NCBI GenBank assembly: GCA_011523155.1
Contig: WTHL01000042.1
Coordinates: 1 to 16,528, forward strand
From: Synechococcus sp. PL34863bin_39
Lineage (GTDB): Bacteria; Cyanobacteriota; Cyanobacteriia; PCC-6307; Cyanobiaceae
DNA length: 16,528 nt
Direction: 5' to 3'
Under the pieces are notes generated by a model. The model was not told the DNA's origin. It saw only the letters and a list, made by a program, of their open reading frames with translations, and made no database searches. Below are positions 432-16,528 of the stretch, piece after piece (positions within the stretch are counted from its first letter, which is position 1; each line of letters starts with the position of its first letter). The position numbers were made by a program, and so were the translations under genes.

Positions 432-438
432 CTTGCAC

Positions 439-2698: not shown

Positions 2699-2961
2699 GG
2701 CTCCCGCTCGAATGACCCGCCACGTGACCAGGCCTTGGCTTGCAACCGGTCACCCGTTCGTTCTCTCCCTGATTGCCATGGGTTTTCAAGAGCCCTCAAC
2801 AGTTTTTCAAATGCTTCTGCAGGACAAAAACCCACGAGCCGGCAGGTCATCGCGGGGGGCGTCACCCTGGGGCTGTGACCAAGATCACAGGCCACCGTGA
2901 GCCGGATCAACGCTGGAGACTCAAGGTCGGGCGATGGTTGATCCATCCCCGAACAGGACCC
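2699..2961. other. Intergenic region with CRP-type operator
   Basis: This 263-bp stretch without a convincing gene separates the methyltransferase gene from a small membrane-protein gene. It contains an A/T-richer patch around 2795-2832, a perfect CRP-type palindrome at 2874-2889, and an AGGA Shine-Dalgarno just before the ATG at 2962. No strong factor-independent terminator and no TAnnnT -10 box was found between the palindrome and the start. The open frame that crosses it from 2773 lacks any recognisable protein character and is treated as upstream read-through of the real 2962 gene. Confidence 0.6.
2874..2889. promoter_or_regulatory. Perfect CRP/SYCRP-type binding site
   Basis: The sequence reads TGTGA-CCAAGA-TCACA, exactly the consensus TGTGA-N6-TCACA of the cyclic-AMP receptor protein family. 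The symmetry extends one more base pair on each side (C...G at 2873 and 2890). It lies in an intergenic region, 72 bp upstream of the ATG at 2962. An NtcA site would need GTA-N8-TAC; here it is GTG-N8-CAC, so a CRP-type regulator fits better. Whether it activates or represses is not evident, because no clear -10 box could be placed. Confidence 0.65.
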
Positions 2962-3225
2962 ATGAAATACCTCCTCCTGACCACGACCGTTCTTGGTTTC
3001 GCCAGCAGTCTCCTGATTGCCAACGGCCGTACGGATCTTCAGGCAGCCGAGCAGGCCAGACGCACACAACAGCAGGTGGGCGTGGCGCTGACCTCTCCAG
3101 CATCTGAAGGCCTGGCGGGCCTGAAGTTAGGCGTGGGTGTTCTGCTTGCTGCTGGATGCCTGACTCAGATCAAAACGGTTGCGGAACGCTCCAGCAGCAA
3201 CAAAGTCGAGCCGGTTGCAGGCTGA
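2962..3225 (+). CDS. Small membrane or secreted hypothetical protein (87 aa)
   Basis: Not recognised. The protein opens MKYLLLTTTVLGFASSLLIANG, a hydrophobic stretch that could be a signal peptide or a membrane anchor. A polar segment rich in Gln, Ala and Arg follows. A second hydrophobic segment, GLKLGVGVLLAAGCLTQI (about residues 52-69), precedes a charged tail. Either two membrane spans or a signal peptide plus one span is possible. The ATG is chosen because AGGA stands five bases before it and the hydrophobic N-terminus begins there; a longer in-frame start at 2773 would add an implausible 63 residues. A perfect CRP-type palindrome sits 72 bp upstream, so expression may respond to cAMP or another CRP-family signal. 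Confidence 0.6.
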   Translation: MKYLLLTTTVLGFASSLLIANGRTDLQAAEQARRTQQQVGVALTSPASEGLAGLKLGVGVLLAAGCLTQIKTVAERSSSNKVEPVAG

Positions 3226-3275
3226 TGCTCCCTACGCAGGCCTCCGACTCCATCAAATCCCGGACGAACTCCCGG

Positions 3276-3281
3276 TAGATT
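3276..3281 (+). promoter_or_regulatory. Possible -10 element of glmU (TAGATT)
   Basis: TAGATT matches the TAnnnT pattern of cyanobacterial -10 boxes and lies 25 bp before the glmU ATG, implying a leader of roughly 20 nt. No good -35 match stands 17 bp upstream. The call is weak. Confidence 0.3.
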
Positions 3282-3306
3282 CCGGCGGTTTCCACCCCCA
3301 GGCCGC

Positions 3307-4647
3307 ATGCTCGCCGTTGCCGTTCTTGCCGCTGGAAAGGGCACACGCATGAAAAGCGCTCTTCCGAAGGTGCTGCAGCCCCTGGCAGGGGCCACCCTGG
3401 TGGAGCGGGTGCTGGCAAGCGCTGAACACCTGAAGCCCGATCGACGTCTTCTGATCGTGGGCCACCAGGCGGAACGTGTTGAAGAGCAGCTGGGAGGCCT
3501 GGACGGCCTGGAATTCGTCCTTCAGCAGCCGCAACAGGGAACCGGCCACGCGGTGCAGCAGCTGATCCCCTCCCTGGAGGGCTTCGATGGCGAGCTGCTT
3601 GTGCTCAACGGAGATGTGCCCCTGCTGAGGCCTGAAACCATCAACGCCCTGGTCAGCACGCACCGCAGCAGTGGCGCCGATGTGACCCTCCTCACCGCCC
3701 GGCTGAGTGATCCCACCGGCTATGGCCGGGTGTTCGCGGATGCCTCGGGCCAGGTCAGCGGCATCGTTGAACATCGCGACTGCAGTGAAGAGCAGCGTCA
3801 GAACAACCTCACCAACGCTGGGATCTACTGCTTCAACTGGAGCAAACTCGCCGAAGCTCTGCCGAAGCTGACCACGGACAACGACCAGGGCGAGCTCTAT
3901 CTCACCGACACCGTGGCCATGCTTGACAAAGCCATGCACGTGGAGGCGGAGGACCCCGACGAAGTGAACGGCATCAACAACCGCGCCCAGCTGGCTCAGT
4001 GCGAAGCCGTGCTCCAGGAGCGTCTGCGCCGTCACTGGATGAATGAGGGTGTGACCTTCGTGGACCCTGGCAGCTGCACACTCAGCGAACACTGCGACAT
4101 CGGGCGTGATGTGGTGATCGAGCCCCAGACACACCTGCGAGGGTCCTGCCGGATCGGTGACGGGTGTCGAATCGGGCCGGGGTCTGTACTGGAGGATGCC
4201 GGAATCGGCAACAACGTGACGGTGCTGCTTTCCGTTGTCCGTGATGCCGAGGTGGGCGATGACGTCAGCATCGGCCCCTACGCGCATCTGCGACCCGGTG
4301 CCCAGATCGCTGATGACTGCAGAATCGGCAACTTTGTGGAGGTGAAGAAGAGTCAGCTCGGCCAGGGCACCAAGGTGAATCACCTGAGCTACATCGGCGA
4401 CGCAGATCTCGGCGCAGGCGTCAACGTGGGAGCCGGAACCATCACCGCCAACTACGACGGCGTCAACAAGCATCAGACCGTGATCGGCGACGGCAGTAAA
4501 ACGGGTGCAAATTCTGTGCTCGTAGCCCCTGTCACCATCGGGTCCCAGGTCACGATCGGAGCCGGTTCCACCATCACCAAGCCTGTACCCGATGGAGCAC
4601 TGGCTCTGGGACGGGCCAAACAGTGGATCAAGGAGAACTGGCGCTGA
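3307..4647 (+). CDS. glmU: Bifunctional UDP-N-acetylglucosamine pyrophosphorylase / glucosamine-1-phosphate N-acetyltransferase
   Basis: GlmU acetylates glucosamine-1-phosphate and then adds UMP to give UDP-GlcNAc, the precursor of peptidoglycan and lipopolysaccharide. Seen: the N-terminal nucleotidyltransferase signature [20 protein letters not shown] (residues 7-26), [25 protein letters not shown] and [11 protein letters not shown]. From about residue 250 a left-handed beta-helix of hexapeptide repeats follows, with the acetyltransferase motifs [27 protein letters not shown] (catalytic His) and [11 protein letters not shown]. The length of 446 residues and both domains are complete. It is the first gene after the small membrane-protein gene, with an 81-bp gap that may hold its own promoter. 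Both halves look catalytically intact. Confidence 0.97.
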
Positions 4648-4666
4648 ATGCAACCATCACGCCAGT
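4637..4666 (+). terminator. Possible stem-loop at the 3' end of glmU
   Basis: ACTGGCG (4637-4643) and CGCCAGT (4660-4666) form a perfect 7-bp inverted repeat with a 16-nt loop that spans the glmU stop codon. No U-tract follows (GACTTG), so it could stabilise the transcript end rather than terminate transcription. Confidence 0.3.
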
Positions 4667-4790
4667 GACTTGTCGATAAGCCATGGCGTTGGGTCATGAG
4701 GCGATGATCACCAATCACCGGATTGTTTTCACAACTGGCGGATGGCATGCCTCCACGTTTGTGTGAGCGTGTGGATGTCGCCAGACCCCA

Positions 4791-4988
4791 ATGTCAGCCC
4801 AGAAGCGCTACACGGTGCGTTATCGCGATGCCGACAGCAGCTTGCGCGAAAGTTGCTACTACGCACGCGATGCCTACGAGGCGCGTGTGCTTGCCATGGA
4901 ATCGGTTCGCCATCTCCATGACCATCCGCATGCCATCGACCTGATCCGCTGCGAGAGCAACCCGTCCCTCGACCCTCAGGCGGCCTGA
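4791..4988 (+). CDS. Small hypothetical protein (65 aa)
   Basis: Not recognised. The sequence MSAQKRYTVRYRDADSSLRESCYYARDAYEARVLAMESVRHLHDHPHAIDLIRCE looks like a compact soluble alpha/beta protein. An N-terminal beta strand (KRYTVRYRD) is followed by a helix rich in Arg, Glu and Ala, and there is no membrane segment or signal peptide. The composition is that of a real protein and the ATG is the first start in frame after a 143-bp gap. No Shine-Dalgarno is seen. Its last 13 nt overlap the 3' end of the convergent gpgS gene. No function is proposed. Confidence 0.6.
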   Translation: MSAQKRYTVRYRDADSSLRESCYYARDAYEARVLAMESVRHLHDHPHAIDLIRCESNPSLDPQAA

Positions 4989-6217
4989 ACAAGGGGGTGT
5001 CCCTTCGCCATCACCCCAGAATTTCCGGAACGGTCCAGACCGGCTGCAGCCAGATCATCCTGAAGGCGTGGAGCACAGCTGAGCAGGCGCGACCAGCTGG
5101 GAAGCTGAATCGCCAGCGGGTCATTGAGGAACGACTGCACCCCCGGTCGAATGAGATTGGAGAAGTCCTGAACGGCGAGTTCCTCGCCGTGACGGTTGTA
5201 GGGCAGGTTGTTGACCGCAGAGTCGAGGGCAAACTGCCGGATCCTGTCCTCTCCGACCCTGCGGAAGAGCACCTCAAGGGTGGCGACCTGCTCGGCCGCA
5301 ATGGTGGTGCCCTGATGCTCCATCAGGCCGCGCAGAACACTGGCAAGAATTTCCGAGCACATCCTCTGCAATCCCTCACGGGGCGTGCTTCCAAGCGTCT
5401 TGTGTTTGTGGTCGAAGAGTCCCAGGTCCACCTGGGCGATGCGCGACAGTGCCACATGGCGATGGACCTCGGACAGCAGACCGATCTCAAGCCCCCAGTC
5501 ACAGGGGATGCGGAGGTTCACGGCCAGATCCCTGGTGAAGGCAAACTCACCGGCGAGGGGGTAGCGGAACGCCTGCAGATAGTTCAGAAACGGTGAGCCA
5601 TCCAGCAGCTGGGAGAGTGCGGTCAGCAGGGGACCGACGAACAGGCGGGTTCCACGACCCTGAAGCGCATGGGTTTCAAGGGAGAGCCGGCTGTAGAAAG
5701 CCTTGACATAGGCAACGCCGCTGGATGGAAGCAGAAGCGGAAGCAGCATCCGCTGCGGGTAGGCAGGGGTGAAGGTGCGGATGTCGGCATCGAACAGTGC
5801 GATCGCCTCCGCGCTTCGGGTCGCCACGCCGAGCCCCTGCCAGACAGCCCATCCCTTGCCAGGAGGCCCAGCGAGGTCAAGCCCCTGATCGCTGAAACTG
5901 CGAAGCAGTTCCTGAACGGCGGGCGCGTTGGTCCACTGGACATGCACGGGGAAGGGCATCTCCGCAAAGAACGCCTCCGCTTCGAGCACGTCGTCAACGC
6001 TTTCAGCCGCAAGAGCGATCACCAGCTGATGCAGACCCTCAAGGTCCTTCAGAACCGAACGGATCAGGCTGAGCGCCGGCCGCCGGAATTCCTCCATCAG
6101 GCAGGGAATCAGAATGGTGGTGGGCCGTTCTCGGAGTCCTTGGCGAAGCAGCTGCGGATCCTGCAGTGCCAGGGTGTAGTCGTGGATGGTGGTGATCAGA
6201 CCCTGTTGGAAATCCAT
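4976..6217 (-). CDS. gpgS: Glucosyl-3-phosphoglycerate synthase (GT81 family)
   Basis: GpgS transfers glucose from an NDP-glucose donor to 3-phosphoglycerate, the first step to the compatible solute glucosylglycerate. Seen in the 413-residue protein: ILIPCLMEEF (about residues 35-44), PGKGWAVWQG (119-128), the metal- and nucleotide-binding FDADIRTF (142-149, DxD), YPLAGEFAFTRDLA (219-232), DWGLEIGLLSEVH (240-252) and LFDHKHK (267-273), in the order of the GT81 family. ATG at 6217 is chosen because the family's N-terminal region starts there; the 82 in-frame codons upstream are Ser/Cys/Arg-rich and would run into the divergent gene. It is divergent from the phosphorylase-gpgP pair across 70 bp. 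In this family the solute responds to salt and nitrogen limitation. Confidence 0.88.
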   Translation of the reverse strand: MDFQQGLITTIHDYTLALQDPQLLRQGLRERPTTILIPCLMEEFRRPALSLIRSVLKDLEGLHQLVIALAAESVDDVLEAEAFFAEMPFPVHVQWTNAPAVQELLRSFSDQGLDLAGPPGKGWAVWQGLGVATRSAEAIALFDADIRTFTPAYPQRMLLPLLLPSSGVAYVKAFYSRLSLETHALQGRGTRLFVGPLLTALSQLLDGSPFLNYLQAFRYPLAGEFAFTRDLAVNLRIPCDWGLEIGLLSEVHRHVALSRIAQVDLGLFDHKHKTLGSTPREGLQRMCSEILASVLRGLMEHQGTTIAAEQVATLEVLFRRVGEDRIRQFALDSAVNNLPYNRHGEELAVQDFSNLIRPGVQSFLNDPLAIQLPSWSRLLSCAPRLQDDLAAAGLDRSGNSGVMAKGHPLVQAA

Positions 6218-6270
6218 TCCGTGATCAGCGCGACAACATGACTGGACGGCCACCGAGCAACCTGGGTCAC

Positions 6271-6283
6271 AATCCCTGGGATT
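6271..6283. promoter_or_regulatory. Short palindrome in the gpgS / phosphorylase divergent region
   Basis: AATCCC-T-GGGATT is a perfect 6-bp inverted repeat around one base. It sits in the only 70 bp shared by the two divergent glucosylglycerate genes, four bases before the phosphorylase GTG. The position suits an operator acting on one or both genes, but such a short palindrome can arise by chance. Confidence 0.3.
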
Positions 6284-6287
6284 AGCG

Positions 6288-8000
6288 GTGTTGGATGGAG
6301 AAGGGCAGGAGCGATTGGCTGCACTGCTCGAACGGTGGCGGCGTACCGACGATCGGAATGAGATCGAATCTCTGATGTCGTCGTTGCTGCAATTTGCGCA
6401 GACGGTCACAGAGCAGGAGCCCATCCACAGGCGTTGGGATCGATCCACATCCGTGCTGATCACCTACGGAGATTCGGTGAACCGCGCTGATGAAGCGACG
6501 TTGACAACCCTGAATCGGTTTCTGAACGATCACGCCCAGAGCCTGGCTGGTGTGGTGCACGTTCTTCCGTTCCTCAAGTCGACGAGCGATGGCGGCTTTG
6601 CGGTGTCGAGTCACGTGAGCCTTGAGGAGCATCTGGGCGGCTGGGACGAGCTGAAGACGCTGTCAACGGGGAGGACCCTGATGGCGGACCTGGTGCTCAA
6701 CCACGTCTCAGCGGCCCACCCCTGGGTGCAGCAATTCCGTCGGGGCCAACACCCAGGGGTGGAGTGTGTTCTGGCACCCGACCACACGGCGGACTGGACT
6801 CAGGTAGTGCGTCCCCGAAGCTCGGCGTTATTCACCCCTTTGCAAACAAGTCAGGGAATTCAACAGGTGTGGACCACCTTCGGACCCGACCAGGTGGATG
6901 TGAATTGGGACAGCACAGCGGTCCTCCAGGGGTTCGCCGACCTGGTCTCCCGCATGGTGAACAACGGCGTGAGCTGGCTGCGGCTGGATGCAGTCGGCTA
7001 CGTCTGGAAAGAGGCCGGCAGTCGCTGCATCCATCTCCCAAGAGCGCACCTGCTGGTGAAACTGCTGCGCGCGCTTCTGGAGGTTCAGCAGACGCAGGGC
7101 GTCGTGGTGACCGAAACGAATGTGCCCGAGGAGGAGAACCTCTCCTATCTGCGGACATCGGACGAAGCCCATCTGGCCTACAACTTCCCGCTCCCACCGC
7201 TGCTGTTGGAAGCGATTCTGCGGGAACGGACCGATCTCCTCAACACCTGGCTGAACCGCTGGCCCGACCTGCCAACCACCACCACGCTGCTGAACTTCAG
7301 CGCCAGTCATGACGGCGTGGGGCTCAGACCACTCGAAGGATTGATCGACAGTCAACGCCTGGAACAGCTGCTGGAGCAATGCGAACGGCGCGGTGGTCTG
7401 ATCAGTCACAGGCGACTGAGCGATGGCCAGGAACAGCCCTACGAAATCAACATCAGCTGGTGGTCAGCGATGGGAGATGGGGGACGGGATTCCGCGCTGC
7501 ACCAGCGCGAACGCTTTCTCCTCAGTCAGCGACTGGTGATGGCCTTGCCCGGGGTTCCGGCGTTCTATCTGCCGACGCTCCTGGCATCAGGCAATGACGA
7601 AGCACGGTTCCGTGCCAGTGGTCAACGGCGGGATCTCAACCGCGAACGCTTTCGTGCTGATGCTCTGGAACGTCGTCTGCAGGACCCAGACAGCGACTGC
7701 CGGTTCACGATGACGATGGTCAACCGGAGCATGGCCATACGGGCTTCACTGGCGGCCTTTGATCCCGAGGCCGACTTCTGCTGCCTCAGTGAGGGGCTCA
7801 CCGATCGGGTCGTGATCCGGCGAGGATCCGGCAGCGAGAGCCTCTGGGCCGTTCACAACTTCAGCGCCAATCGCATCAGCCTCAATCTGCGTTCGCTCGC
7901 CAATCAGGAGCATTGGTGCGATCGTCTTCAGGATTCAGCGGTCGTCCCGACCCTTCTCACCCTGGAGCCTTTTGCTGTGCATTGGTTGCAACCATGCTGA
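6288..8000 (+). CDS. GH13_18 glycoside phosphorylase, probably glucosylglycerate phosphorylase
   Basis: This is a TIM-barrel enzyme of the sucrose phosphorylase subfamily, 570 residues. All four GH13 regions are seen: DLVLNHVS (residues 134-141), WLRLDAVGYVWK with nucleophile Asp234, VVTETNVPEEENL with acid/base Glu276, and SASHDGVG with His341-Asp342. Sucrose phosphorylases are nearer 500 residues. The extra N-terminal ~60 residues resemble YcjM-type enzymes, which use phosphate to split glucosylglycerate into glucose-1-phosphate and glycerate. Location between gpgS and gpgP argues for that substrate here; sucrose is the alternative. The start is GTG at 6288 (TTG at 6291 also possible), with no Shine-Dalgarno. 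The stop overlaps the gpgP start as ATGCTGA, so the two are translationally coupled. Confidence 0.8.
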   Translation: MLDGEGQERLAALLERWRRTDDRNEIESLMSSLLQFAQTVTEQEPIHRRWDRSTSVLITYGDSVNRADEATLTTLNRFLNDHAQSLAGVVHVLPFLKSTSDGGFAVSSHVSLEEHLGGWDELKTLSTGRTLMADLVLNHVSAAHPWVQQFRRGQHPGVECVLAPDHTADWTQVVRPRSSALFTPLQTSQGIQQVWTTFGPDQVDVNWDSTAVLQGFADLVSRMVNNGVSWLRLDAVGYVWKEAGSRCIHLPRAHLLVKLLRALLEVQQTQGVVVTETNVPEEENLSYLRTSDEAHLAYNFPLPPLLLEAILRERTDLLNTWLNRWPDLPTTTTLLNFSASHDGVGLRPLEGLIDSQRLEQLLEQCERRGGLISHRRLSDGQEQPYEINISWWSAMGDGGRDSALHQRERFLLSQRLVMALPGVPAFYLPTLLASGNDEARFRASGQRRDLNRERFRADALERRLQDPDSDCRFTMTMVNRSMAIRASLAAFDPEADFCCLSEGLTDRVVIRRGSGSESLWAVHNFSANRISLNLRSLANQEHWCDRLQDSAVVPTLLTLEPFAVHWLQPC

Positions 8001-8845
8001 CACCGGGGCACATCGAACCATCCGACATCTGGGTGGTGACGGATCTTGACGGGACCCTCCTCGACCACGCCTACGACTGGAGCGCGGCGAAACCCGCCCT
8101 GCGTTGGCTGAAGCAGATCGGCGTCGCGGTGATTCCATGCACGAGCAAAACCGCCGAGGAAGTGCGTCGTTTCCGGCAGGACGCCGATCTCGATGGGCCT
8201 TTCATTGTCGAGAACGGCGGCGCAATTCACGGCGGAGCGGGCCAGTCCGCCTGGGAACGGGGCCTCGGTCAACCGCATCAGGCTTTGAAGAAACAGCTCA
8301 GGGCCCTGGAAACAAGGGTCGGCACACCACTCCGTGCCCTGGAGGACCTCAGTCCTGATGAGGTCACTGCGCTGACAGGTCTCAAGGGCGAGGCTGCGGC
8401 CATGGCTCAGCGGCGCTCCTGGAGCGTCCCCTTCCTGAACACGCCTGAAGCAATGCGGGATCGGCTCGAGGAGGAAGCCGAGGCACTCGACCTCACCGTG
8501 GTGCAGGGCAACCGGATGAGTCACCTCCTGCAGGCCGGAACAAGCAAGGGGCAGGCCCTCGAGGCTTTAAAAGACCACTTCGACCAGAAGGATGTTCACG
8601 TTCTGGCCCTTGGAGACTCCCCCAATGATCTGCCTCTTCTGAACGCTGGCGACCACAGTGTGGTGGTGCCTGGAGCGCAGGGGGCTCACCCGAAGCTGCG
8701 AGCTTCGGTGGCATCAGGTGACTTCGCGTTGGCCCCCGCCGCCCATGCCGTGGGCTGGGCCTGCAGCGTCTTGTCGCACGTCAGGACCCTCGTGCCTCCA
8801 GCACTGGCAGCAACCGCTCCAGAGCCACCCCACGACTGGCCTTGA
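7994..8845 (+). CDS. gpgP: Glucosyl-3-phosphoglycerate phosphatase (HAD, mannosyl-3-phosphoglycerate phosphatase family)
   Basis: This HAD-superfamily phosphatase of the MPGP type has 283 residues. Seen: motif I TDLDGTLLDH (nucleophile Asp17, general acid Asp19), motif II in PCTSKT, the lysine in TSKGQALEAL, and motif IV LALGDSPNDLPLL. In this setting it would dephosphorylate glucosyl-3-phosphoglycerate to glucosylglycerate after GpgS. ATG 7994 is chosen because it leads straight into the HAD domain; the longer frame from 7913 overlaps the phosphorylase. It shares ATGCTGA with the upstream stop codon. The family core ends near the FALAPAAHAVGW motif. The last 21 residues, Pro/Ala-rich, are encoded entirely within the antisense end of murF (8781-8845). 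Confidence 0.87.
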   Translation: MLTPGHIEPSDIWVVTDLDGTLLDHAYDWSAAKPALRWLKQIGVAVIPCTSKTAEEVRRFRQDADLDGPFIVENGGAIHGGAGQSAWERGLGQPHQALKKQLRALETRVGTPLRALEDLSPDEVTALTGLKGEAAAMAQRRSWSVPFLNTPEAMRDRLEEEAEALDLTVVQGNRMSHLLQAGTSKGQALEALKDHFDQKDVHVLALGDSPNDLPLLNAGDHSVVVPGAQGAHPKLRASVASGDFALAPAAHAVGWACSVLSHVRTLVPPALAATAPEPPHDWP

Positions 8846-10169
8846 GCAGCAGGGTGTCACCGTCTGCGAGCCACGCCTTGAGGGGGACTGCAGCCTGCTC
8901 GGGACTGTCGACCTGGCAGAACCGGGGCAACGATGATGCTGCCGCGGCCATGGCCTCGGCCTCCGCACCGGATGCGACAACCACCAGACCGTCGAGTCGT
9001 GCTTCAACAGCTCGCTCCACCACCATGCGATGCAGCCCGACGCTCCGCTCTCCCAGTTCCAGCATCGTGCCCAGCACGGCGAAGCGTCGCCCGCGCTCCC
9101 TGGAGAGCAGATCGAGGGACGCGAGAACGGCCTCCGGAGAGGCGTTGTAGGTCTCATCCAGCACGGTGAGCCCGCCGATCTGACGGCGACGACTCCTTCC
9201 CCCCGGAATGTCGACCACAAGGTCGGTGAGACAGGCTGGAGCAACGTTCAGGGATGCGGCAACGGCCCGGGCCAGAAGCCAGTTGCGGGCATTGTGTCGA
9301 CCGACCAACGGCATCCGGTAACGGAGTCCGGACAACAGCAGCTCAGTTGTCTGATCAGGGCTTTGCTCACAAACAACCGCGCAGTCATCGGCAACCCCTG
9401 ATCCGGGATCCCCTTCCAGTGCCACACGGTGCACACGTCCGCGCCAGACCCCGGCGAGAGTCTCCTCAAGCAATGGATCCCCGGCAGGAATCACCACCAG
9501 GGCCTCGGGCCTCAGGCCTGCCGTGATTTCGCATTTGGCGCTCGCGATCGCCTCCCGGCTTCCCAGTCGGCCGATATGGGCCGTGCCGATGTTGGTGATC
9601 ACGGCCACATCAGGTTCGGCACAACGGGAGAGCCGTTCGATTTCACCCCGACCACGCATCCCCATTTCGACCACCACGGCGGCATGGGAGGCATCGGCGC
9701 CCAGCAGTGTGAGGGGCACGCCGATGTCGTTGTTGTTGTTGCTGGCACTGGCGTGCACAGCCCCAAGGGGGGAAAGGGCTGCGCGAATCAGCTCGCGGGT
9801 GGTGGTTTTCCCGGCTGAGCCCGTCACTGCCACCACGGTGGCGCCGAGGGCACGGCGATGGACGTTGGCGAGCTGCTGATAAGCCGCCGTGGTGTCAGGG
9901 ACACGCCAGTGGGGCAAGCCATCAGGAACATTGAATGACGTCGCCTCAGCCACCAGTGCGGCCTGGGCACCACGGCCCAGGGCCTCGGGCAGAAAACAGT
10001 GACCATCAAAGGTCTCTCCGACCAGCGGAACGAACAGATCGCCTGCCTTGAGCCGACGGCTGTCGGTGCAGACAGGCCCCAGGGCCATCGTCCGCATTGC
10101 AGACCACTGTTCGGGGGAGACTCCAGCCGGTTCACCCCAGAGCTGCGTCAACTGACCGAGGTGCAACAC
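8781..10169 (-). CDS. murF: UDP-N-acetylmuramoyl-tripeptide--D-alanyl-D-alanine ligase
   Basis: MurF adds D-Ala-D-Ala to the UDP-MurNAc tripeptide in the cytoplasm, the last soluble step of peptidoglycan precursor synthesis. Seen in the 462-residue protein: CTDSRRLKAGDLFVPLVGETFDGHCFL in the N-terminal UDP-binding domain (about 34-60), the ATP loop VTGSAGKTTTRELI (115-128), NNNNDIGVPLTLL, and EMGMRGRGEI in the central domain. The C-terminal Mur domain has DETYNASPEAVLASLDLL. The length is normal and motifs are intact. The start is GTG at 10169 (TTG at 10166 is equally possible). It is divergent from the small-protein/symporter operon across 87 bp and convergent with gpgP, overlapping it by 65 bp. 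Confidence 0.95.
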   Translation of the reverse strand: MLHLGQLTQLWGEPAGVSPEQWSAMRTMALGPVCTDSRRLKAGDLFVPLVGETFDGHCFLPEALGRGAQAALVAEATSFNVPDGLPHWRVPDTTAAYQQLANVHRRALGATVVAVTGSAGKTTTRELIRAALSPLGAVHASASNNNNDIGVPLTLLGADASHAAVVVEMGMRGRGEIERLSRCAEPDVAVITNIGTAHIGRLGSREAIASAKCEITAGLRPEALVVIPAGDPLLEETLAGVWRGRVHRVALEGDPGSGVADDCAVVCEQSPDQTTELLLSGLRYRMPLVGRHNARNWLLARAVAASLNVAPACLTDLVVDIPGGRSRRRQIGGLTVLDETYNASPEAVLASLDLLSRERGRRFAVLGTMLELGERSVGLHRMVVERAVEARLDGLVVVASGAEAEAMAAAASSLPRFCQVDSPEQAAVPLKAWLADGDTLLLKASRGVALERLLPVLEARGS

Positions 10170-10203
10170 GCGGTAAGAAAGCTTTCGCGGCCTTGATCAT
10201 GCC

Positions 10204-10232
10204 GTTACAGGCGCGACCTGCAGGGGTAGGTT
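10204..10232 (+). promoter_or_regulatory. Candidate promoter for the micro-ORF / symporter operon
   Basis: GTTACA (10204-10209, four of six matches to TTGACA) and TAGGTT (10227-10232, TAnnnT) are separated by 17 bp. This places a start site near 10239. The promoter overlaps the 7-bp palindrome beginning at 10231, a usual position for repressor operators. Confidence 0.4.
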
Positions 10233-10252
10233 GCCAGCAGGGCGACTGGCAA
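10231..10252. repeat. Inverted repeat TTGCCAG-N8-CTGGCAA before the symporter operon
   Basis: A perfect 7-bp inverted repeat with an 8-base spacer, ending four bases before the ATG at 10257. Its right arm overlaps the AAGG Shine-Dalgarno (10251-10254). It can be read as an operator over the -10/+1 region. If transcription starts further upstream, it would be an RNA hairpin that hides the ribosome-binding site. Confidence 0.5.
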
Positions 10253-10256
10253 GGCC

Positions 10257-10400
10257 ATGAATGAATTCCAGCAAGCCCTGCTGATTTTCGGACTGGGGGG
10301 CCTCGTCACCCTGGCCACAGTTCTGATGATCTGGCGGGGACACCGGCAATGGAAGGGACGTGATCCCTTCGACGACACCCCGGGGAGCTTGTTCCGATGA
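10257..10400 (+). CDS. Single-pass membrane micro-protein (47 aa) coupled to the symporter
   Basis: Not recognised. The translation starts MNEFQQALLIFGLGGLVTLA and ends RDPFDDTPGSLFR. A hydrophobic helix of about residues 7-26 is followed by a basic, then acidic, tail that should face the cytoplasm. AAGG lies shortly before the ATG. The stop codon overlaps the symporter start as ATGA (10397-10400), the classic arrangement of translational coupling, which is the strongest evidence that this short frame is real. Several transporters work with tiny single-span partners, so a regulatory or stabilising subunit of the symporter is a reasonable guess, but only a guess. Confidence 0.65.
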   Translation: MNEFQQALLIFGLGGLVTLATVLMIWRGHRQWKGRDPFDDTPGSLFR

Positions 10401-11851
10401 TGGTTGGAACCACCACCAACGCTGTGGGACAGGCGACTTTTCTGGCGCCGGGGATCGCCTGGGCCCTGGTTGTGATTTTCTCGGTGCTCTGGATCGCCCT
10501 GGGAATGTCCTGGGGACGCAAGGGCAAGGGCGATGCCGATGACTACATGCTGGCGGGTCGCAACATCGGCCTGGCCCTCAGCACCGCCACCTTGATGGCC
10601 TCCTGGGTGACGGGAAACACAACACTTTTGGCACCCGAGTTCGGCTATCGCAACGGCCTCTGGGGCATGTTCAGCTACGCGCTGGCTGGGCTCGGCCTGA
10701 TCCTCTTCGCTCCGCTGGCTCTTCGGATCAAGCAGCTGATGCCAAGCGGACGCACCAGCGGAGACTTTTTCCGACTGCGCTACGGCCGCACCGCCTGGTG
10801 GGTCTTCATGGTGATCACGGCCGTCTACACCCTGGGGTTTCTGATGACTCAGGCCATGGGCGCAGGGATTCTCCTCGAGGCCCTGTCGGGCTTTGACTAC
10901 CGCCTCGGGATGCTGGTGGTGATCGGCGTCTCAACGGTTTACACCCTGTTCGGGGGCATGCGGGCCGTGGTCGGCACCGACTACATCCAGTCGCTTCTGA
11001 TCATGGTGCTGCTGGCGGTGGTGGCCGTGCTGGCCTTCCGCCAGTTCCCTGTGCCTGAACTGCATCAGCATCTGGTGCGTGACCATCCCGACCGCCTCAA
11101 CCTGCTGCTGCCGGCGGGGCTGCTGATCGCCTGGAACTCGGCCCTCTTTTCCATGGGCGAGGTGTTCCACAACAACATCTGGTGGTCACGGGTGTTCTCC
11201 AGCCGTGGATCGGTGGTGTTCCGTTCCTTCATCTTTGGTGGAATGGCCTGGATGACCGTTCCAGTCGTGACGGGATCCATCGGCCTCGTCGCCCTGGCCC
11301 AGGACATTGATGTGCCTCAGGTGAACATGGTCTTTCCGGTTGTCGCCTCACAGCTGCTCGGGGCTGGTGGCGCGGCGCTGGTGTTCGTTGTGGTGTTCGC
11401 GTCGTTGACCTCGACCCTGGATTCCCTGCTCGCCTCCACAGCGGATCTGGTGGCTGAAGACGTGGTGTTCAGACTGCTCAATCCAAGGATGAGCGATCAG
11501 CAGCTGAAGACAGCGACCCGTCTTGTTGTGATCGGGCTCGCCGCCGTGACGCTCCTGCTGTCCCTGCCGCGCCTTGATTCGCTGGCCTCCGTGCTCTTTT
11601 TCACAGGCGCTCTCGTGGCCTCGACCATCTGGCCCGTTGCCTATGGCCTCTACTGGGCCCATGCCAATCGCCATGCCGCCATCGCCGCGATGGTGAGCGG
11701 CAGCGTCTGCGGCCTGCTGGCGTACGTCCTGATCGCGCCCTACTGCGCAGCTCTGATCAGTGCCGCCATCTCAGCCCTGGTGATGGTGGTCGGCAGCGAA
11801 ATGCGACCGGAGCGCTTCTCCTGGCACACCCTGAGGGAAGGGGATGGATGA
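10397..11851 (+). CDS. Sodium:solute symporter family (SSS) permease, DUR3-like
   Basis: This polytopic inner-membrane protein has 484 residues and about a dozen or more hydrophobic helices, and should use the Na+ gradient to import a small solute. Seen: the SSS-type stretch DDYMLAGRNIGLALSTATLMASWVTGNTTLLAPE (about 48-81), the SGDFFRLRYGR loop (about 118-128), VSTVYTLFGGMRAVVGTDYIQSL in the mid-region, and FASLTSTLDSLLASTADLVAEDV. The last carries the Ser/Thr pair of the Na2 sodium site. By eye it is nearer the DUR3 urea-type branch than to proline (PutP) or pantothenate (PanF) carriers, but the substrate cannot be fixed. It is translationally coupled to the 47-aa protein upstream. The nitrogen-type genes downstream make an N-containing substrate attractive. 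Confidence 0.85.
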   Translation: MMVGTTTNAVGQATFLAPGIAWALVVIFSVLWIALGMSWGRKGKGDADDYMLAGRNIGLALSTATLMASWVTGNTTLLAPEFGYRNGLWGMFSYALAGLGLILFAPLALRIKQLMPSGRTSGDFFRLRYGRTAWWVFMVITAVYTLGFLMTQAMGAGILLEALSGFDYRLGMLVVIGVSTVYTLFGGMRAVVGTDYIQSLLIMVLLAVVAVLAFRQFPVPELHQHLVRDHPDRLNLLLPAGLLIAWNSALFSMGEVFHNNIWWSRVFSSRGSVVFRSFIFGGMAWMTVPVVTGSIGLVALAQDIDVPQVNMVFPVVASQLLGAGGAALVFVVVFASLTSTLDSLLASTADLVAEDVVFRLLNPRMSDQQLKTATRLVVIGLAAVTLLLSLPRLDSLASVLFFTGALVASTIWPVAYGLYWAHANRHAAIAAMVSGSVCGLLAYVLIAPYCAALISAAISALVMVVGSEMRPERFSWHTLREGDG

Positions 11852-11899
11852 CTCCGCTGTTCGACATCAGATGTTCAACACCTCGAGCCTGACAACACC

Positions 11900-12061
11900 A
11901 TGAGCCTGATTCTTCTGTCAGCGGCCGGCACCCCCACCTGGATCGCCGGCCCCGGCCTCTTCGGCCTGATCGTGAAAGGAAGTCTGGTCGGTCTGGCGAT
12001 CGCCGTTCTGGCGTTGGTGCTGATCTGGGTGATCGAATGGCGCCGCGGACGTGTCTGGTGA
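11900..12061 (+). CDS. Single-pass membrane micro-protein (53 aa) downstream of the symporter
   Basis: Not recognised. The reading frame starts MSLILLSAAGTPTW and ends VIEWRRGRVW. A hydrophobic helix of about residues 27-46 is closed by an Arg-rich tail, giving a typical N-out/C-in single-span protein. A first, weaker hydrophobic stretch lies at residues 2-9. It begins 48 bp after the symporter stop, with no clear Shine-Dalgarno, and is probably on the same transcript. It is too short for common gene-finding cut-offs. Support is its membrane-protein character and tidy position; without homologues it stays tentative. Confidence 0.5.
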   Translation: MSLILLSAAGTPTWIAGPGLFGLIVKGSLVGLAIAVLALVLIWVIEWRRGRVW

Positions 12062-12225
12062 TGCGAGGGATGCGCAATCCTGTAGTCATGGCTACAGAAC
12101 AGGCATCCATGCCTGAAGAAACCCATGGATACGCTGGCCGGAACCATCCCGACTGATCTAGGGATAAGGGATGCCTCCAGCGGGCTCTTGGCTGAACAGA
12201 GCTGAGTGTTGTTGCAGCCTTGCTT
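12062..12225. other. Intergenic leader of the transcarbamylase gene
   Basis: This is 164 bp between the 53-aa gene and the transcarbamylase ATG. It holds a perfect NtcA-type palindrome (12081-12096), a TACGCT box at 12130-12135 that could be a -10, and a small hairpin (GCTCT 12184-12188 with AGAGC 12198-12202). No terminator with a U-tract was found. Confidence 0.5.
12081..12096. promoter_or_regulatory. NtcA-type binding site (TGTA-N8-TACA)
   Basis: TGTAGTCATGGCTACA is a perfect match to the GTA-N8-TAC consensus of NtcA, the global nitrogen regulator of cyanobacteria, including the flanking T and A. The symmetry extends to CTGTAG...CTACAG (12080-12097). The nearest TAnnnT box (12130-12135) starts 34 bp after the site rather than the usual 20-24 bp. 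Classical class II activation is therefore not fitted exactly; an upstream activator position or repression remains possible. It lies 130 bp before the transcarbamylase ATG. Confidence 0.55.
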
Positions 12226-13344
12226 ATGACCATTTCCGCTTCGCTCGAACACCGGCTGCGTTCAGGAGCTCTGCGCTTCGATCGGCTCGACTCGCCGGAT
12301 GTATACGGCTCGAATCAGCCCCAGGCCCTGCTGGGCGCACTGCTCGAGGAGGGTGAAGCGCTTCAGGATCTGGCCGATCAGCACGTGATCTCGATCCGGC
12401 CCTTCCAACCGGCGTCGCTGCTGCAGCTATTCCGTCTGGCGGCGAAGTTCGAGAGCAATCCCAACCGATTCATCACCCACAACAGCCCTCTGAAGGGAAA
12501 AATTCTGATCAACGCCTTCTACGAGCCCAGCACGCGAACGCGACTGTCCTTCGACAGTGCCTGGCATCGCCTCGGAGGCGATTCGATCAACATCACCGAC
12601 CGCAGCAGCACGGGCATCGCCAAGGGAGAGTCGCTGGTGGATGTGGCGCACATGTTCAACAACTACGGCGACTGCGTCGTCCTGCGCGATAACCACGCCG
12701 ATGCGGTCTACGAAATGACGGAAGCACTGCGGATTCCGATCATCAACGCCGGCAATGGCATCGATGAGCACCCCACCCAGGCGATGGCCGATCTTTACAC
12801 GATTTTCAAGTGGAGGCCGGAACTCACCAACCCGGATCTGCCAGGGAGTGAGCGGATCAGAATCGGCGTGGTCGGGCTTCCCAGCCGGATGCGCACGGTG
12901 AGGTCGCTGCTGCGGATCCTTGGGAAATTCCCCCAGATCGTCGAGGAGGTGGTGATCATCCATGACCCGGGAGCCGAGGCCGATCAGGCACTGTTTGACC
13001 CGGGGCAGTTGGAGGAACTGCGCAGCGCGGGATTGGCGGTGCGCTGCACCAGTGCGCTCCATGACGAGCTTCCCTCGCTCGATGTGCTCTACGTCAACGC
13101 CATTGCCTGGGTGGGCGACAGCTACGAAACCCATGGCGACAGTTTCCGCATCACCAAGGATCTGCCGTTCAAGCAAGGAGCGATCGTGCTGCATCCGCTG
13201 GCCAGGGGCCAGGAGCTGAGCACCTGCATGGATGACACCCCCCACAACTGGTATTTCGCCCAGGCCCGAGGCGCGGTGTTTTTGCGGATGGCGCTGCTGA
13301 CCTGCATGGTCGAGCGCACTGACCGCGTGATGGATGTGATCTGA
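12226..13344 (+). CDS. ATCase/OTCase-superfamily transcarbamylase of unknown acceptor
   Basis: A 372-residue carbamoyltransferase. The carbamoyl-phosphate site is intact: STRTR (102-106), the 80s-loop lysine in AKGES (Lys133), Arg154, HPTQ (His182, Gln185) and Arg223 in SRMRTVRSL. The aspartate-recognition motif of ATCase (E. coli Arg229-x-Gln231 in YMTRVQ) reads YVNAIA here, with Ala292 and Ala294, and HPLPR has become HPLAR. About 50 extra residues precede the core. It would therefore be expected to carbamoylate something other than aspartate, though automated annotation would probably call it pyrB. ATG 12226 is preferred over TTG 12220. An NtcA-type palindrome lies upstream, and the AsnB-like gene begins 11 bp after its stop, probably one operon. 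Confidence 0.8.
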   Translation: MTISASLEHRLRSGALRFDRLDSPDVYGSNQPQALLGALLEEGEALQDLADQHVISIRPFQPASLLQLFRLAAKFESNPNRFITHNSPLKGKILINAFYEPSTRTRLSFDSAWHRLGGDSINITDRSSTGIAKGESLVDVAHMFNNYGDCVVLRDNHADAVYEMTEALRIPIINAGNGIDEHPTQAMADLYTIFKWRPELTNPDLPGSERIRIGVVGLPSRMRTVRSLLRILGKFPQIVEEVVIIHDPGAEADQALFDPGQLEELRSAGLAVRCTSALHDELPSLDVLYVNAIAWVGDSYETHGDSFRITKDLPFKQGAIVLHPLARGQELSTCMDDTPHNWYFAQARGAVFLRMALLTCMVERTDRVMDVI

Positions 13345-13355
13345 GGGCAGGCGGT

Positions 13356-15389
13356 ATGTGTGGCATCGGAGGCATCTTCAACGCATCAGCCCAGGAGAGG
13401 GTTGACCCTCAGCTGCTGGTCAACATGGCGGCGATCCAGGAGCATCGGGGTCCCGATGGATTCGGTTACCGGGTCATCGACACGGCCGGGGTGGGGTTCT
13501 GCCACGCACGGCTCTCCATCATCGACCTCAATGAATCGCGAGCCCGCCAACCGTTCCTGAGCGACCGGAACGGGAGTGGGGGTCGGATTCTCATGGCCCA
13601 CAACGGCGAGTTCTACGACTTCCAGCGCATCCGAGCCGACCTCACGGCCCGGGGGGTCCGCTTCAGCAGCAAAAGCGATTCGGAAATCCTGCTGCAGCTT
13701 TACCAGCAACAGGGACTGGAGGCGACCCTGCCCCAGCTGCGCGGGGAGTTCGCTTTCGCCATCTACGACGAAGCCGATGACGCGCTCCACCTCGTACGCG
13801 ACAGATTCGGCATCAAACCCCAGTACTGGAGCCTCACCCCACAGGGACTGGTCTTCGGCTCTGAATTGAAAGTGCTGTTCGCGCACCCCGCGGTGGAGCG
13901 TCGGTTCACCGCAGAGGGCCTGTTCCATCAGCTGATGCAGACGATGGTGCCGGGCACAACAGCCTTCGCCGGAGTCCATCAGGTGCCCCCTGGCCACGGA
14001 ATCACCGTGAAACGCGAGGGAGGGCAACTGTCGGTGTCGCAGTGGAAGTACTGGGACCTGAACTTCCCCCGCCAGGGGGAACGCGATCGCGGGCTCAGCG
14101 AGACCGACCACATCGATGCCGTCCGCGCCGCCTTGCTTGAAGCGGTGGAACTGCGCATGGTGGCTGACGTTCCGGTGGGGTGCTACCTCTCCGGAGGAAT
14201 CGACAGTTGCTCCATCCTCGGCCTTGCCTCCGCCGTCAGCCAGACCCCGGTGAAGGCGTTCACGATCGGCTTCGACGACGCCCGCTACGACGAATCAGCG
14301 ATCGCGAAGGAGATGGCGGATGCCACAGGAGCCGAACAGGATCTGATGCGTCTGTCGGGCAAGGAGCTCTACGGGTGGATGGAACGCACCCTCTGGCACA
14401 CCGAACGCACCATCTACAACACCCTGGCGGTGGCGAAGTTCCTGATGAGCCGGCATGTCAATGCCGTCAATTACAAGGTGGTGATGACCGGAGAAGGGTC
14501 GGATGAACTCTTCGGTGGCTACCCCGCCTTCCGGCGCGACATGTTTCTGCATGGCCTCGAGGATCTGCCGGCGGAGGAGCGGCAGACCTGGGAGGATCTG
14601 CTTCAACAATCCAATGCCCTGGTTCAGGGGGCGATGCTGGCCGCCGATCAGGTTGATGATCCCCACCTTGATGCCGTGGTGGGATTCACCCCGAGCTGCC
14701 TGCAGCCCTGGCTTGCCTGCGCTCCACTGGTGCCTGGGCTTCTGGCGTCCCATCACCGTGAGGCACTGGAGGACTACTCCCCCGGCCGCGCGATCGCTGA
14801 CACGCTGGACCGCGATCAGCTCGACGGTCGGCACGCCCTGGACAAGGCGCAGTACGTCTGGATCAAGACCATGCTCGAGGGGCAGATCCTCACCTGGGGA
14901 GGCGACAGGGTGGACATGGCCAATTCGATGGAAGCCCGCCCGGCATTCCTCGACCACCATCTCGCCGCCACAGCGGTGCAGGTACCACCGGAACTCCGGA
15001 TCAAGGGAAAAACCGAAAAATACGTGCTGCGAGAGGCGATGGCCGGCTTGCTTCCGGAGGTGCTCTACCGCAGGGAGAAATTCGCGTTCATGGCACCTCC
15101 GGCCCACACGGAGCCCGAGAAATGGGCGCAGATGCAGCAACTGGCGGCGGAGTATCTGAGCGACGAAGCGATCGAGGCTGCTGGTCTGCTGTCAGCCGCT
15201 GGTGTGCGCGCTCTGTTCGCACGCCACGAGGATCCGGGCACCAGCGATTCAGATCGGGTGCAGATGGATGCCCTGATCAACCATCTCCTCGGCGTGCAGA
15301 TGCTTCATCGCCTGTTCATCGCTGCGGATCTTCCGGCTCAGGCCCGCGCCAAGGCCGATGCGTTGGGCTGGACCGTCAAACCTTCCTAG
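13356..15389 (+). CDS. Glutamine-hydrolysing asparagine synthetase-like amidotransferase
   Basis: AsnB-type protein, 677 residues. The N-terminal glutaminase domain has the nucleophile Cys2 in MCGIGGIF, HRGPDGFG, RLSIIDL, HNGEFYDF (82-89) and SDSEILL. The synthetase domain has the pyrophosphate loop SGGIDS (279-284), TIGFDD and GEGSDELFGGYPAFRRD (379-395), then KYVLREAM near residue 550. Ammonia from glutamine would be used to amidate an adenylated carboxylate. Classical AsnB amidates aspartate and is about 550 residues; this longer form resembles AsnB-like enzymes that often act on other acids, so asparagine is not certain. GAGGG lies 8 bases before the ATG. The gene follows the transcarbamylase by 11 bp, suggesting consecutive steps. 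Confidence 0.85.
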   Translation: MCGIGGIFNASAQERVDPQLLVNMAAIQEHRGPDGFGYRVIDTAGVGFCHARLSIIDLNESRARQPFLSDRNGSGGRILMAHNGEFYDFQRIRADLTARGVRFSSKSDSEILLQLYQQQGLEATLPQLRGEFAFAIYDEADDALHLVRDRFGIKPQYWSLTPQGLVFGSELKVLFAHPAVERRFTAEGLFHQLMQTMVPGTTAFAGVHQVPPGHGITVKREGGQLSVSQWKYWDLNFPRQGERDRGLSETDHIDAVRAALLEAVELRMVADVPVGCYLSGGIDSCSILGLASAVSQTPVKAFTIGFDDARYDESAIAKEMADATGAEQDLMRLSGKELYGWMERTLWHTERTIYNTLAVAKFLMSRHVNAVNYKVVMTGEGSDELFGGYPAFRRDMFLHGLEDLPAEERQTWEDLLQQSNALVQGAMLAADQVDDPHLDAVVGFTPSCLQPWLACAPLVPGLLASHHREALEDYSPGRAIADTLDRDQLDGRHALDKAQYVWIKTMLEGQILTWGGDRVDMANSMEARPAFLDHHLAATAVQVPPELRIKGKTEKYVLREAMAGLLPEVLYRREKFAFMAPPAHTEPEKWAQMQQLAAEYLSDEAIEAAGLLSAAGVRALFARHEDPGTSDSDRVQMDALINHLLGVQMLHRLFIAADLPAQARAKADALGWTVKPS

Positions 15390-15416
15390 AGTCAATCCAC
15401 TGTGTGGTCTTCGCGA

Positions 15417-15680
15417 ATGGCGACTCCCTCAATGGCTGCTGGGTTGGTGATCACCGCCGCCGCAGCCTTCGTCGGCGGTGCGGCGGCCCTGGCCCAGCGA
15501 GAGATTCCCAAGGCCCCCGGCCATGATCAGTGCCCCCTCGGCTACGTGAACACACTGGGAACCACCTGCGTGTCACCCATTCACTACGAGGTCACCCCGA
15601 CCCACGGCAAAGCCTGTCCATCGGGATGGATGAACATCGGAGCGGGCTACTGCAAGAAGAAAACCCTGGGGATTTTCTGA
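15417..15680 (+). CDS. Secreted or membrane-anchored Cys-rich small protein (87 aa)
   Basis: Not recognised as a named family. From ATG 15417 the protein has a hydrophobic N-terminal segment (about residues 6-26, ending ALAQRE), like a signal peptide or anchor. Two copies of a 13-residue motif follow: CPLGYVNTLGTTC (39-51) and CPSGWMNIGAGYC (67-79), both CPxG-aromatic-xN-x5-C. The four cysteines could form two disulfide loops in the periplasm. A basic KKK follows the last cysteine. The GTG at 15402 would add five residues. It starts 27 bp after the AsnB-like gene and may be the last gene of that operon. Confidence 0.65.
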   Translation: MATPSMAAGLVITAAAAFVGGAAALAQREIPKAPGHDQCPLGYVNTLGTTCVSPIHYEVTPTHGKACPSGWMNIGAGYCKKKTLGIF

Positions 15681-15741
15681 CCGACGCGCCCGATGCCTCC
15701 TCGGCAGGCTTGTGCTTCTTCCAACTTTTTTCCAGCGGAAG

Positions 15742-15776
15742 CGTTTCAGGGACTACACACACGCTGAGCTGAAACG
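15742..15776. repeat. Inverted repeat CGTTTCAG-N19-CTGAAACG upstream of the amidohydrolase
   Basis: Perfect 8-bp arms at 15742-15749 and 15769-15776. A second, nested pairing exists: CAGCG 15733-15737 with CGCTG 15762-15766. It lies in the 124-bp gap before the M20 gene and after a T-run (15726-15731). No U-tract follows the right arm on the plus strand, so an operator or leader structure is likelier than a terminator of the upstream gene. Confidence 0.4.
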
Positions 15777-15804
15777 GAGATTGTGGGGGCCTCTTTGATG
15801 CGGG

Positions 15805-16528
15805 GTGAGGCACTTGACTCTGTTGGAAGCCAGGCAGGACATCTCCACCCAGAGCATTCCCAGACCCGCCCCACTGCTTGTACCGGACAGCACACGACTG
15901 GCTGCCAGCATTGAAGCGATGGCGGCCATCGGCCTCCAATCCGATGGAAGTGTGTGCCGGCGTGGCTTCAGTGATGAAGATCAGCTCGGACGGGACCGCC
16001 TCGCGGCCTGGATGAAGGATGCCGGCATGCGGGTTCGTGTTGATGCTGCAGGCAATCTCATCGGTCGATTGGATGGGCGCGACCCATCACGTCCAGCCCT
16101 GGTGACCGGATCGCACCTCGACACGGTTCCCACCGGCGGACGGTTTGATGGCGTGCTGGGCGTTCTCGCCGGACTTGAGGTGGTTCGCACACTGCAGTCC
16201 GCTGGCCGCTGCCTGAATCACCCCCTGGAGGTGATCGCTTTTGCCGACGAGGAGTCGACGATGGTGGGTTGCAAGGGCATGGCCGGCAGCGCCTGCTCGG
16301 ATCCAGACAGCTACGCGACAAGCAACGGCCAACCCATCGCGGAGAACCTCGAACGCATCGGCGGCCACTGGCCATCACTCGCGTCTGCCTGCCGCAGCGA
16401 TGGGGCGATCGCTGCCTTCGTGGAGCTCCACGTGGAACAGGGTGCTGTGCTGGAGCAACGGGGCGACACCATCGGTGTGGTGGAAGGTGTGGTCGGCCAG
16501 CGGCGGTTCAACGTGCGCATCGGTGGTC
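15805..16528 (+). CDS. M20-family Zn-dependent amidohydrolase (N-carbamoyl-amino acid / allantoate type), 3' end outside window
   Basis: This is the first ~241 codons of a dinuclear-zinc amidase. Seen: RGFSDED (53-59), GNLIGRLDG, the first metal ligands in TGSHLDTVPTGGRFDGVLGV (His104 and Asp115), ADEES (Glu149, Glu150), and FVELHVEQG with the next His ligand. This pattern marks the hydantoinase/carbamoylase branch, which includes allantoate amidohydrolase, N-carbamoyl-L-amino acid hydrolase and ureidoglycolate amidohydrolase. It should release ammonia and CO2 from a ureido compound. The start is uncertain: GTG 15805 is the furthest upstream after an in-frame stop, while TTG 15814 or a later start is possible. 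The right edge cuts the dimerisation and second catalytic part. Confidence 0.85.
   Translation, partial: MRHLTLLEARQDISTQSIPRPAPLLVPDSTRLAASIEAMAAIGLQSDGSVCRRGFSDEDQLGRDRLAAWMKDAGMRVRVDAAGNLIGRLDGRDPSRPALVTGSHLDTVPTGGRFDGVLGVLAGLEVVRTLQSAGRCLNHPLEVIAFADEESTMVGCKGMAGSACSDPDSYATSNGQPIAENLERIGGHWPSLASACRSDGAIAAFVELHVEQGAVLEQRGDTIGVVEGVVGQRRFNVRIGG

Follow-up and report, generated by a model that had tools for sequence, protein, structure and literature searches.

An Orphan Transcarbamylase Paired with an AsnB-like Amidotransferase in Picocyanobacteria and Ectothiorhodospira: A Candidate Route to Carbamoyl-Glutamine Amide

The stretch of DNA analyzed here (hereafter the window: 16,528 nt of Synechococcus sp. 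PL34863bin_39, assembly GCA_011523155.1, contig WTHL01000042.1, positions 1–16,528) carries a transcarbamylase gene, which we call CT, followed directly by a gene for an AsnB-like glutamine amidotransferase (ASN). A sodium/solute symporter gene (SSF) lies upstream of the pair and a gene for an N-carbamoyl hydrolase (HYU) lies downstream; all four are on the plus strand. A preliminary description of CT had read it as a pyrB-like gene that keeps the carbamoyl-phosphate residues of E. coli aspartate transcarbamylase (ATCase), has lost the aspartate-binding ones, and may use another acceptor. We compared the window with 80 related loci, 41 of cyanobacterial type and 39 others, and propose that CT is a glutamine N-alpha-carbamoyltransferase that, together with ASN, may make the osmolyte carbamoyl-glutamine amide (CGA).

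A transcarbamylase with an altered acceptor pocket

The CT ORF (12226–13344) begins with an ATG at 12226, ends with a stop codon at 13342–13344, and encodes 372 aa in which Pfam detects both transcarbamylase domains (OTCace_N, 8e-41; OTCace, 1.2e-10). When the 81 CT members (the window plus the 80 related loci) are aligned to E. coli PyrB, whose numbering is used throughout, the STRTR carbamoyl-phosphate motif (CT residues 102–106, E. coli 52–56; 12529–12543) and the equivalents of Lys84 (CT Lys133; 12622–12624), Arg105, His134, Gln137, and Arg167 (CT Arg223; 12892–12894) are kept in every one, as had been described for the window. In ATCase, Arg167 and Lys84 help bind the alpha-carboxylate, and Arg229 and Gln231 help bind the second carboxylate of aspartate; we take CT Arg223 to be an alpha-carboxylate ligand as well, a role carried over from ATCase Arg167.

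The two residues that clamp the second carboxylate are missing from every family member read. In the window, Asn291-Ala292-Ile293-Ala294-Trp295 (13096–13110) stands in place of E. coli Thr228-Arg229-Val230-Gln231-Lys232, and none of the 81 members has Arg at position 229 (Ala in 75, Ser in 5, Thr in 1) or Gln at position 231 (Ala in 74, Ser in 5, Val in 1, Thr in 1), while Asn228 and Trp232 are invariant. Of 18 canonical PyrB rows taken from relatives’ genomes, the 17 that are correctly framed all have Arg229 and Gln231, and the remaining one (L084) has the same R-L-Q motif. The replacement of Pro268 by Ala, which the preliminary description had also put forward, is real and invariant in CT, but it is weak as evidence: canonical PyrBs themselves vary at this position (Pro in 7 of the 18 rows, Asn in 10, one misread), and the change is therefore not diagnostic and was dropped. 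The N-terminal extension, earlier put at about 50 residues, does amount to some 45–50 (the alignment with E. coli chains starts at about residue 44–49), and it includes positions conserved across the 81-member alignment. A structure model of CT built from 36 sequences reached a pLDDT of 87.7; a single-sequence model was poor (pLDDT 37.5) and was not used. Fold comparison of the former retrieved only ATCases among the 50 matches listed, and the absence of other transcarbamylases from these was not used as evidence.

Family scores also set CT apart from PyrB. Against TIGR00670, the equivalog for aspartate transcarbamylase, the window CT reaches 196.3 bits, below the cut-off of 236.95, and the CT members of 18 CT-carrying relatives whose genomes were searched for a second PyrB are all below it as well (180.3–201.6 bits). 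A separate, canonical PyrB above the cut-off (279.3–311.9 bits) was found in each of these 18 genomes; its presence makes a role as the pyrimidine enzyme very unlikely for CT, which appears as an extra enzyme in these relatives. A third, weaker transcarbamylase member (E <= 1e-10) is present in 17 of the 18; eight of these regions were fetched, and the seven that were readable all have the ornithine transcarbamylase (OTC) motif HCLP. In the phylogenetic tree, 15 CT sequences form one clade (support 100/100) that lies amid 19 ATCases and is distinct from 7 OTC-like rows, with its exact sister group unsure because long branches were flagged.

Several specificities already described in the transcarbamylase family were considered and rejected. 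CT is not a predicted OTC, as HPLA replaces HCLP, the TIGR00658 score is 93.1 against a cut-off of 280.85 bits, and its clade is separate from the 7 OTC-like rows; it likewise scores far below the NCBIfam cut-offs for putrescine transcarbamylase (62.3 of 500 bits), N-acetylornithine transcarbamylase (29.4 of 288 bits), and the YgeW type (29.1 of 500 and 31.1 of 453 bits). That CT might be a divergent aspartate transcarbamylase, kept as a spare PyrB, was rejected on residues, scores, and tree, and we consider it highly improbable: both aspartate-clamp residues are gone in 81 of 81 members, the canonical enzyme is present in 18 of 18 genomes, and the conserved partner of CT is ASN. CT is an extra-copy transcarbamylase in these relatives with an altered acceptor pocket. 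The lost clamp, the score below the cut-off, the clade of its own, and the separate PyrB together favor the earlier suggestion of a non-aspartate acceptor. The search for a second PyrB proposed alongside that suggestion came out in its favor in the relatives’ genomes, and the warning that a pyrB label would mislead was well placed, with several close CT relatives labeled “aspartate carbamoyltransferase” in their sources.

Pairing with an AsnB-like amidotransferase

ASN (13356–15389) contains a class-II glutamine amidotransferase (GATase) domain and a synthetase domain (Asn_synthase, 6.2e-91), and it would, in our proposal, amidate the alpha-carboxylate of N-carbamoyl-glutamine. The two genes form a tightly paired unit. 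ASN directly follows CT in 78 of the 80 related loci, including one (L016) in which just the first 48 ASN residues fit before the contig ends. Of the two exceptions, one contig ends within CT (L038), and in the other, Thiorhodospira sibirica (L069), ASN lies elsewhere in the genome (L128) and groups with the Ectothiorhodospira ASNs in one clade. The called ORFs are separated by a median of 5 bases in loci of cyanobacterial type (41) and of 53.5 in the others (39). Co-occurrence across genomes follows the same pattern: among 47 genomes of the Ectothiorhodospira family, 40 have both genes, 1 has CT only, 1 has ASN only, and 5 have neither, and among 201 picocyanobacterial genomes the corresponding counts are 33, 0, 1 (cut at a contig end), and 167. 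One picocyanobacterial genome (G241) has two copies of each gene.

Another account of ASN would make it an ordinary asparagine synthetase, with CT doing an unrelated job and the two being neighbors for regulatory reasons. ASN does exceed the cut-off of the glutamine-hydrolyzing asparagine synthase equivalog TIGR01536 (414.7 against 267.1 bits), and in 3 of the 12 genomes searched (G002, G006, and G007) it is the sole match to that family at E <= 1e-30. However, ASN is nearly confined to CT-bearing genomes, also when the two are unlinked (the exceptions are G044 and, at a contig end, G199), the 167 picocyanobacterial genomes noted above do without either gene, and the ASN clade stands apart from E. 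coli AsnB and from the AsnB-type enzyme of a relative. We therefore regard a plain asparagine synthetase as improbable. That clade (16 rows, support 100/98, some long branches flagged) is also apart from the amidotransferase of the N-acetylglutaminylglutamine amide (NAGGN) pathway; as a member of that family (TIGR03104) ASN was rejected, scoring 289.1 bits against a cut-off of 570.1, and the pathway was retained as an analogy.

The proposed product and the genes around the unit

Pairing with an amidotransferase points to a specific product. CGA, a compound protective against salt, was described from a single bacterium in 1991; its structure is exactly that of glutamine carbamoylated at the alpha-amino group and amidated at the alpha-carboxylate. 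Reviews name its source as Ectothiorhodospira marismortui, also called E. mobilis (PMC1224877, PMC7824335, PMC3857566), for which DSM 4180 is listed as the type strain (PMC7824335). The genome of this strain (L074) has the hydrolase, an isochorismatase-family gene, CT, and ASN. A transcarbamylase search of it returned three members: a PyrB, CT, and one bearing the OTC motif HCLP. Since the first and last of these have their assignments, CT is the sole transcarbamylase found there without an assigned pathway. The amidotransferase predicted for NAGGN is encoded separately in this genome (984.9 bits against the cut-off of 570.1).

We propose that CT would carbamoylate L-glutamine at its alpha-amino group with carbamoyl phosphate as the donor, the neutral Ala-Ile-Ala-Trp stretch in place of Arg229/Gln231 being suited to an uncharged side chain, and that ASN would then amidate the alpha-carboxylate of N-carbamoyl-glutamine to yield CGA. 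Carbamoylation is placed before amidation because an acceptor whose alpha-carboxylate is still free would suit the Arg167 and Lys84 equivalents that CT retains. The symporter may retrieve CGA, and the hydrolase may degrade it and recover the nitrogen, together with a DUF1028 protein in cyanobacteria and with an isochorismatase-family amidase in Ectothiorhodospira. The pair could instead make another N-carbamoyl amino-acid amide, built on asparagine, glutamate, or a non-protein amino acid and used as an osmolyte or nitrogen reserve: the pocket shows just that Arg229 and Gln231 no longer hold a second carboxylate, and the CT-ASN pairing does not name the amino acid. Against this alternative, the type strain of the producer species carries the unit, and the nearest specific family of the window hydrolase is one for N-carbamoyl-glutamate, albeit below its cut-off. 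To our knowledge, CGA is the sole natural compound of the N-carbamoyl amino-acid amide type, which likewise speaks for it.

HYU (15805–16528) is cut by the end of the window and belongs to the N-carbamoyl-amino-acid hydrolase/allantoate amidohydrolase family; we assign it a putative role in recycling CGA. Its best NCBIfam match is the ErtE N-carbamyl-L-glutamate amidohydrolase (5.6e-66), to which this truncated protein scores 222.8 bits, below the cut-off of 520, and against TIGR01879 (cut-off 204 bits) the truncated copy reaches 197.5, with four fuller relatives at 341.6–380.1. An N-carbamoyl hydrolase lies within 9 kb of CT in 35 of the 41 cyanobacterial-type loci (the remaining six contigs end less than 2.3 kb after CT) and in 34 of the other 39. 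A DUF1028 family protein occurs in 31 loci, all of cyanobacterial type, three of which were scanned, and five Ectothiorhodospira loci, one of which was scanned, have an isochorismatase-family protein between hydrolase and CT that is nearest to biuret hydrolase, below its cut-off. Either protein, acting with the hydrolase, would fit removal of the 1-amide followed by removal of the carbamoyl group. Between ASN and HYU, a 92-aa ORF (15402–15680) has a marginal CPW_WPC hit and no match in any of the 80 loci.

SSF (10397–11851; PF00474, 2.6e-26) is a candidate for CGA uptake or re-uptake. A symporter lies upstream of CT in 45 of the 80 loci, 31 of the 39 non-cyanobacterial and 14 of the 41 cyanobacterial-type ones; among the 27 cyanobacterial-type loci lacking a symporter, 22 offer 2 kb of room or more, and of those 22, 19 bear the label Prochlorococcus and 3 Synechococcaceae. 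Between SSF and CT, a small protein of 53 aa (11900–12061, plus strand), by eye a single membrane helix and a possible symporter partner, has homologs in 7 of the 80 loci, all seven in Synechococcus/Cyanobium, and no family match in Pfam or NCBIfam. In 27 non-cyanobacterial loci the symporter is preceded by a protein of about 134–209 aa as called (e.g., L052:8006–8455), by eye with a signal peptide and a C-terminal helix and perhaps a symporter subunit; the one member scanned had no family match, and a 149-aa protein before the symporter retrieved nothing in PHROGs.

The frequent presence of symporter and hydrolase near the unit would also suit a breakdown module, in which an imported ureido compound is cleaved by CT working in reverse to give carbamoyl phosphate, as in a catabolic OTC or the YgeW type. 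This we find hardly credible: no carbamate kinase occurs among the 20 neighbor proteins scanned with Pfam, a subset of the neighbors, the family of the near-constant partner spends ATP and glutamine on building amides, the hydrolase alone would be enough for breakdown, and Prochlorococcus-type loci do without the symporter.

CT is found in 41 of the 47 Ectothiorhodospira-family genomes, in 33 of the 201 picocyanobacterial ones, and in 23 of 369 Gammaproteobacteria sampled evenly. Two contigs from metagenome-assembled genomes, labeled Gammaproteobacteria (L012) and Trichodesmium (L014), carry a Synechococcus-/Prochlorococcus-like unit and are probably binning errors. Picocyanobacteria with the unit are mostly salt-adapted, as judged by the glucosylglycerol-phosphate phosphatase family, which is present in 30 of 33 CT-bearing and 74 of 168 CT-less genomes (Fisher p = 2.9e-7, ignoring kinship and genome completeness). 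One paper reports glucosylglycerol genes in every marine strain, in 16 of 17 brackish ones, and in 2 of 67 from freshwater (PMC9361551); one of the two freshwater strains, ATX 6A2, corresponds to our locus L009. It also reports a sodium:solute symporter, “possibly a glucose transporter”, for every marine strain and for only two freshwater ones, including ATX 6A2 (PMC9361551). On one Prochlorococcus-labeled contig (L013:7324–8535), and in none of the other loci, a glucosylglycerol-phosphate phosphatase gene precedes the unit by about 1.4 kb. The window itself has, near the unit at 4976–8845, a relative of glucosyl-3-phosphoglycerate synthase (minus strand; 385 bits, below the NCBIfam cut-off of 700) followed by two ORFs that by eye resemble a sugar hydrolase/phosphorylase and a phosphatase, which is probably a glucosylglycerate compatible-solute cluster; a second Synechococcus genome (L002) has homologs of all three beside the unit in another arrangement.

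We would like to set out the points that weigh against CGA as the product. CGA is described as having so far been found in a single organism and as a minor solute there, and a later Raman study of E. marismortui saw no CGA signal, although its reference library did not include CGA (PMC3857566). A four-nitrogen solute would be surprising in nitrogen-poor oceans. The main text of two papers on picocyanobacterial salinity responses does not mention CT or ASN genes, and the terms carbamoyl, asparagine synth-, asnB, and pyrB are missing from that of PMC12834511, PMC9361551, and PMC9606707. The association with the salt marker is uncorrected for kinship or completeness. The hydrolases stay below the ErtE cut-off, and full-length relatives match an allantoate amidohydrolase subfamily best; four non-cyanobacterial loci (L069, L070, L072, and L076), with about 10 kb on either side, have no hydrolase nearby, and a symporter is missing from Prochlorococcus-type loci. 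That the unit is so widespread, set against a minor solute of one organism, may amount to a discovery or may caution that the true product is only related to CGA. Because this spread cuts both ways, we hold it reasonably probable that CT carbamoylates L-glutamine, that the pair makes CGA, and that symporter and hydrolase recycle it, and we rate a different N-carbamoyl amino-acid amide as unlikely; acceptor, order of steps, product, and accessory roles all stay predictions.

We lean, by a little, toward the broader reading that CT-ASN is the missing CGA route. Many salt-adapted picocyanobacteria, some Prochlorococcus among them, would then make CGA and recycle it as a nitrogen reserve, as would most of the Ectothiorhodospira family and marine Kangiella, Pseudoalteromonas, and Alteromonas relatives. 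If right, this reading would supply genes for the 1991 osmolyte, for which we found no published genes in the titles, abstracts, and passages of the open-licence PubMed Central literature, and would predict a nitrogen-rich solute in abundant ocean phototrophs, for which no report of CGA was found in the same literature. The “aspartate carbamoyltransferase” label on several close CT relatives is corrected as well; metabolic models using such labels would count two pyrimidine enzymes.

Comparison with known systems

CT shares with PyrB (TIGR00670) the fold, the carbamoyl-phosphate site, and the Arg167 and Lys84 equivalents. It differs in lacking Arg229/Gln231, in its invariant Asn228 and Trp232, in its N-terminal extension, in its score below the equivalog cut-off, and in being nearly always accompanied by an amidotransferase. 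If the acceptor is read correctly, CT would add a glutamine-type member to the transcarbamylase family.

The hydrolase shares its domain family with N-carbamoyl-L-amino-acid hydrolases and allantoate amidohydrolases, among them ErtE, to which the window copy has its closest specific match. In contrast to ErtE, HYU is below that family’s cut-off and here would recycle a product.

The closest parallel in logic is the NAGGN pathway with its AsnB-like amidotransferase, for which PMC13060819 cites Sagot et al. (2010), in which the alpha-amino group is masked and the alpha-carboxylate is then amidated by an AsnB-like enzyme to give a neutral osmolyte. The NAGGN system and the CT-ASN unit occur together in 4 of 18 genomes. 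Alpha-carboxylate amidation by AsnB-like enzymes is described for NAGGN and peptide pathways in a preprint (PMC13060819). In the NAGGN pathway, however, the amino group is acetylated, whereas in the CT-ASN unit it would be carbamoylated by a transcarbamylase, and the two amidotransferases belong to different clades. As for CGA itself, it is what the predicted chemistry of the unit would yield, and the type strain of its producer species carries the unit; CGA is reported from that organism alone (PMC3857566), whereas the unit is widespread.
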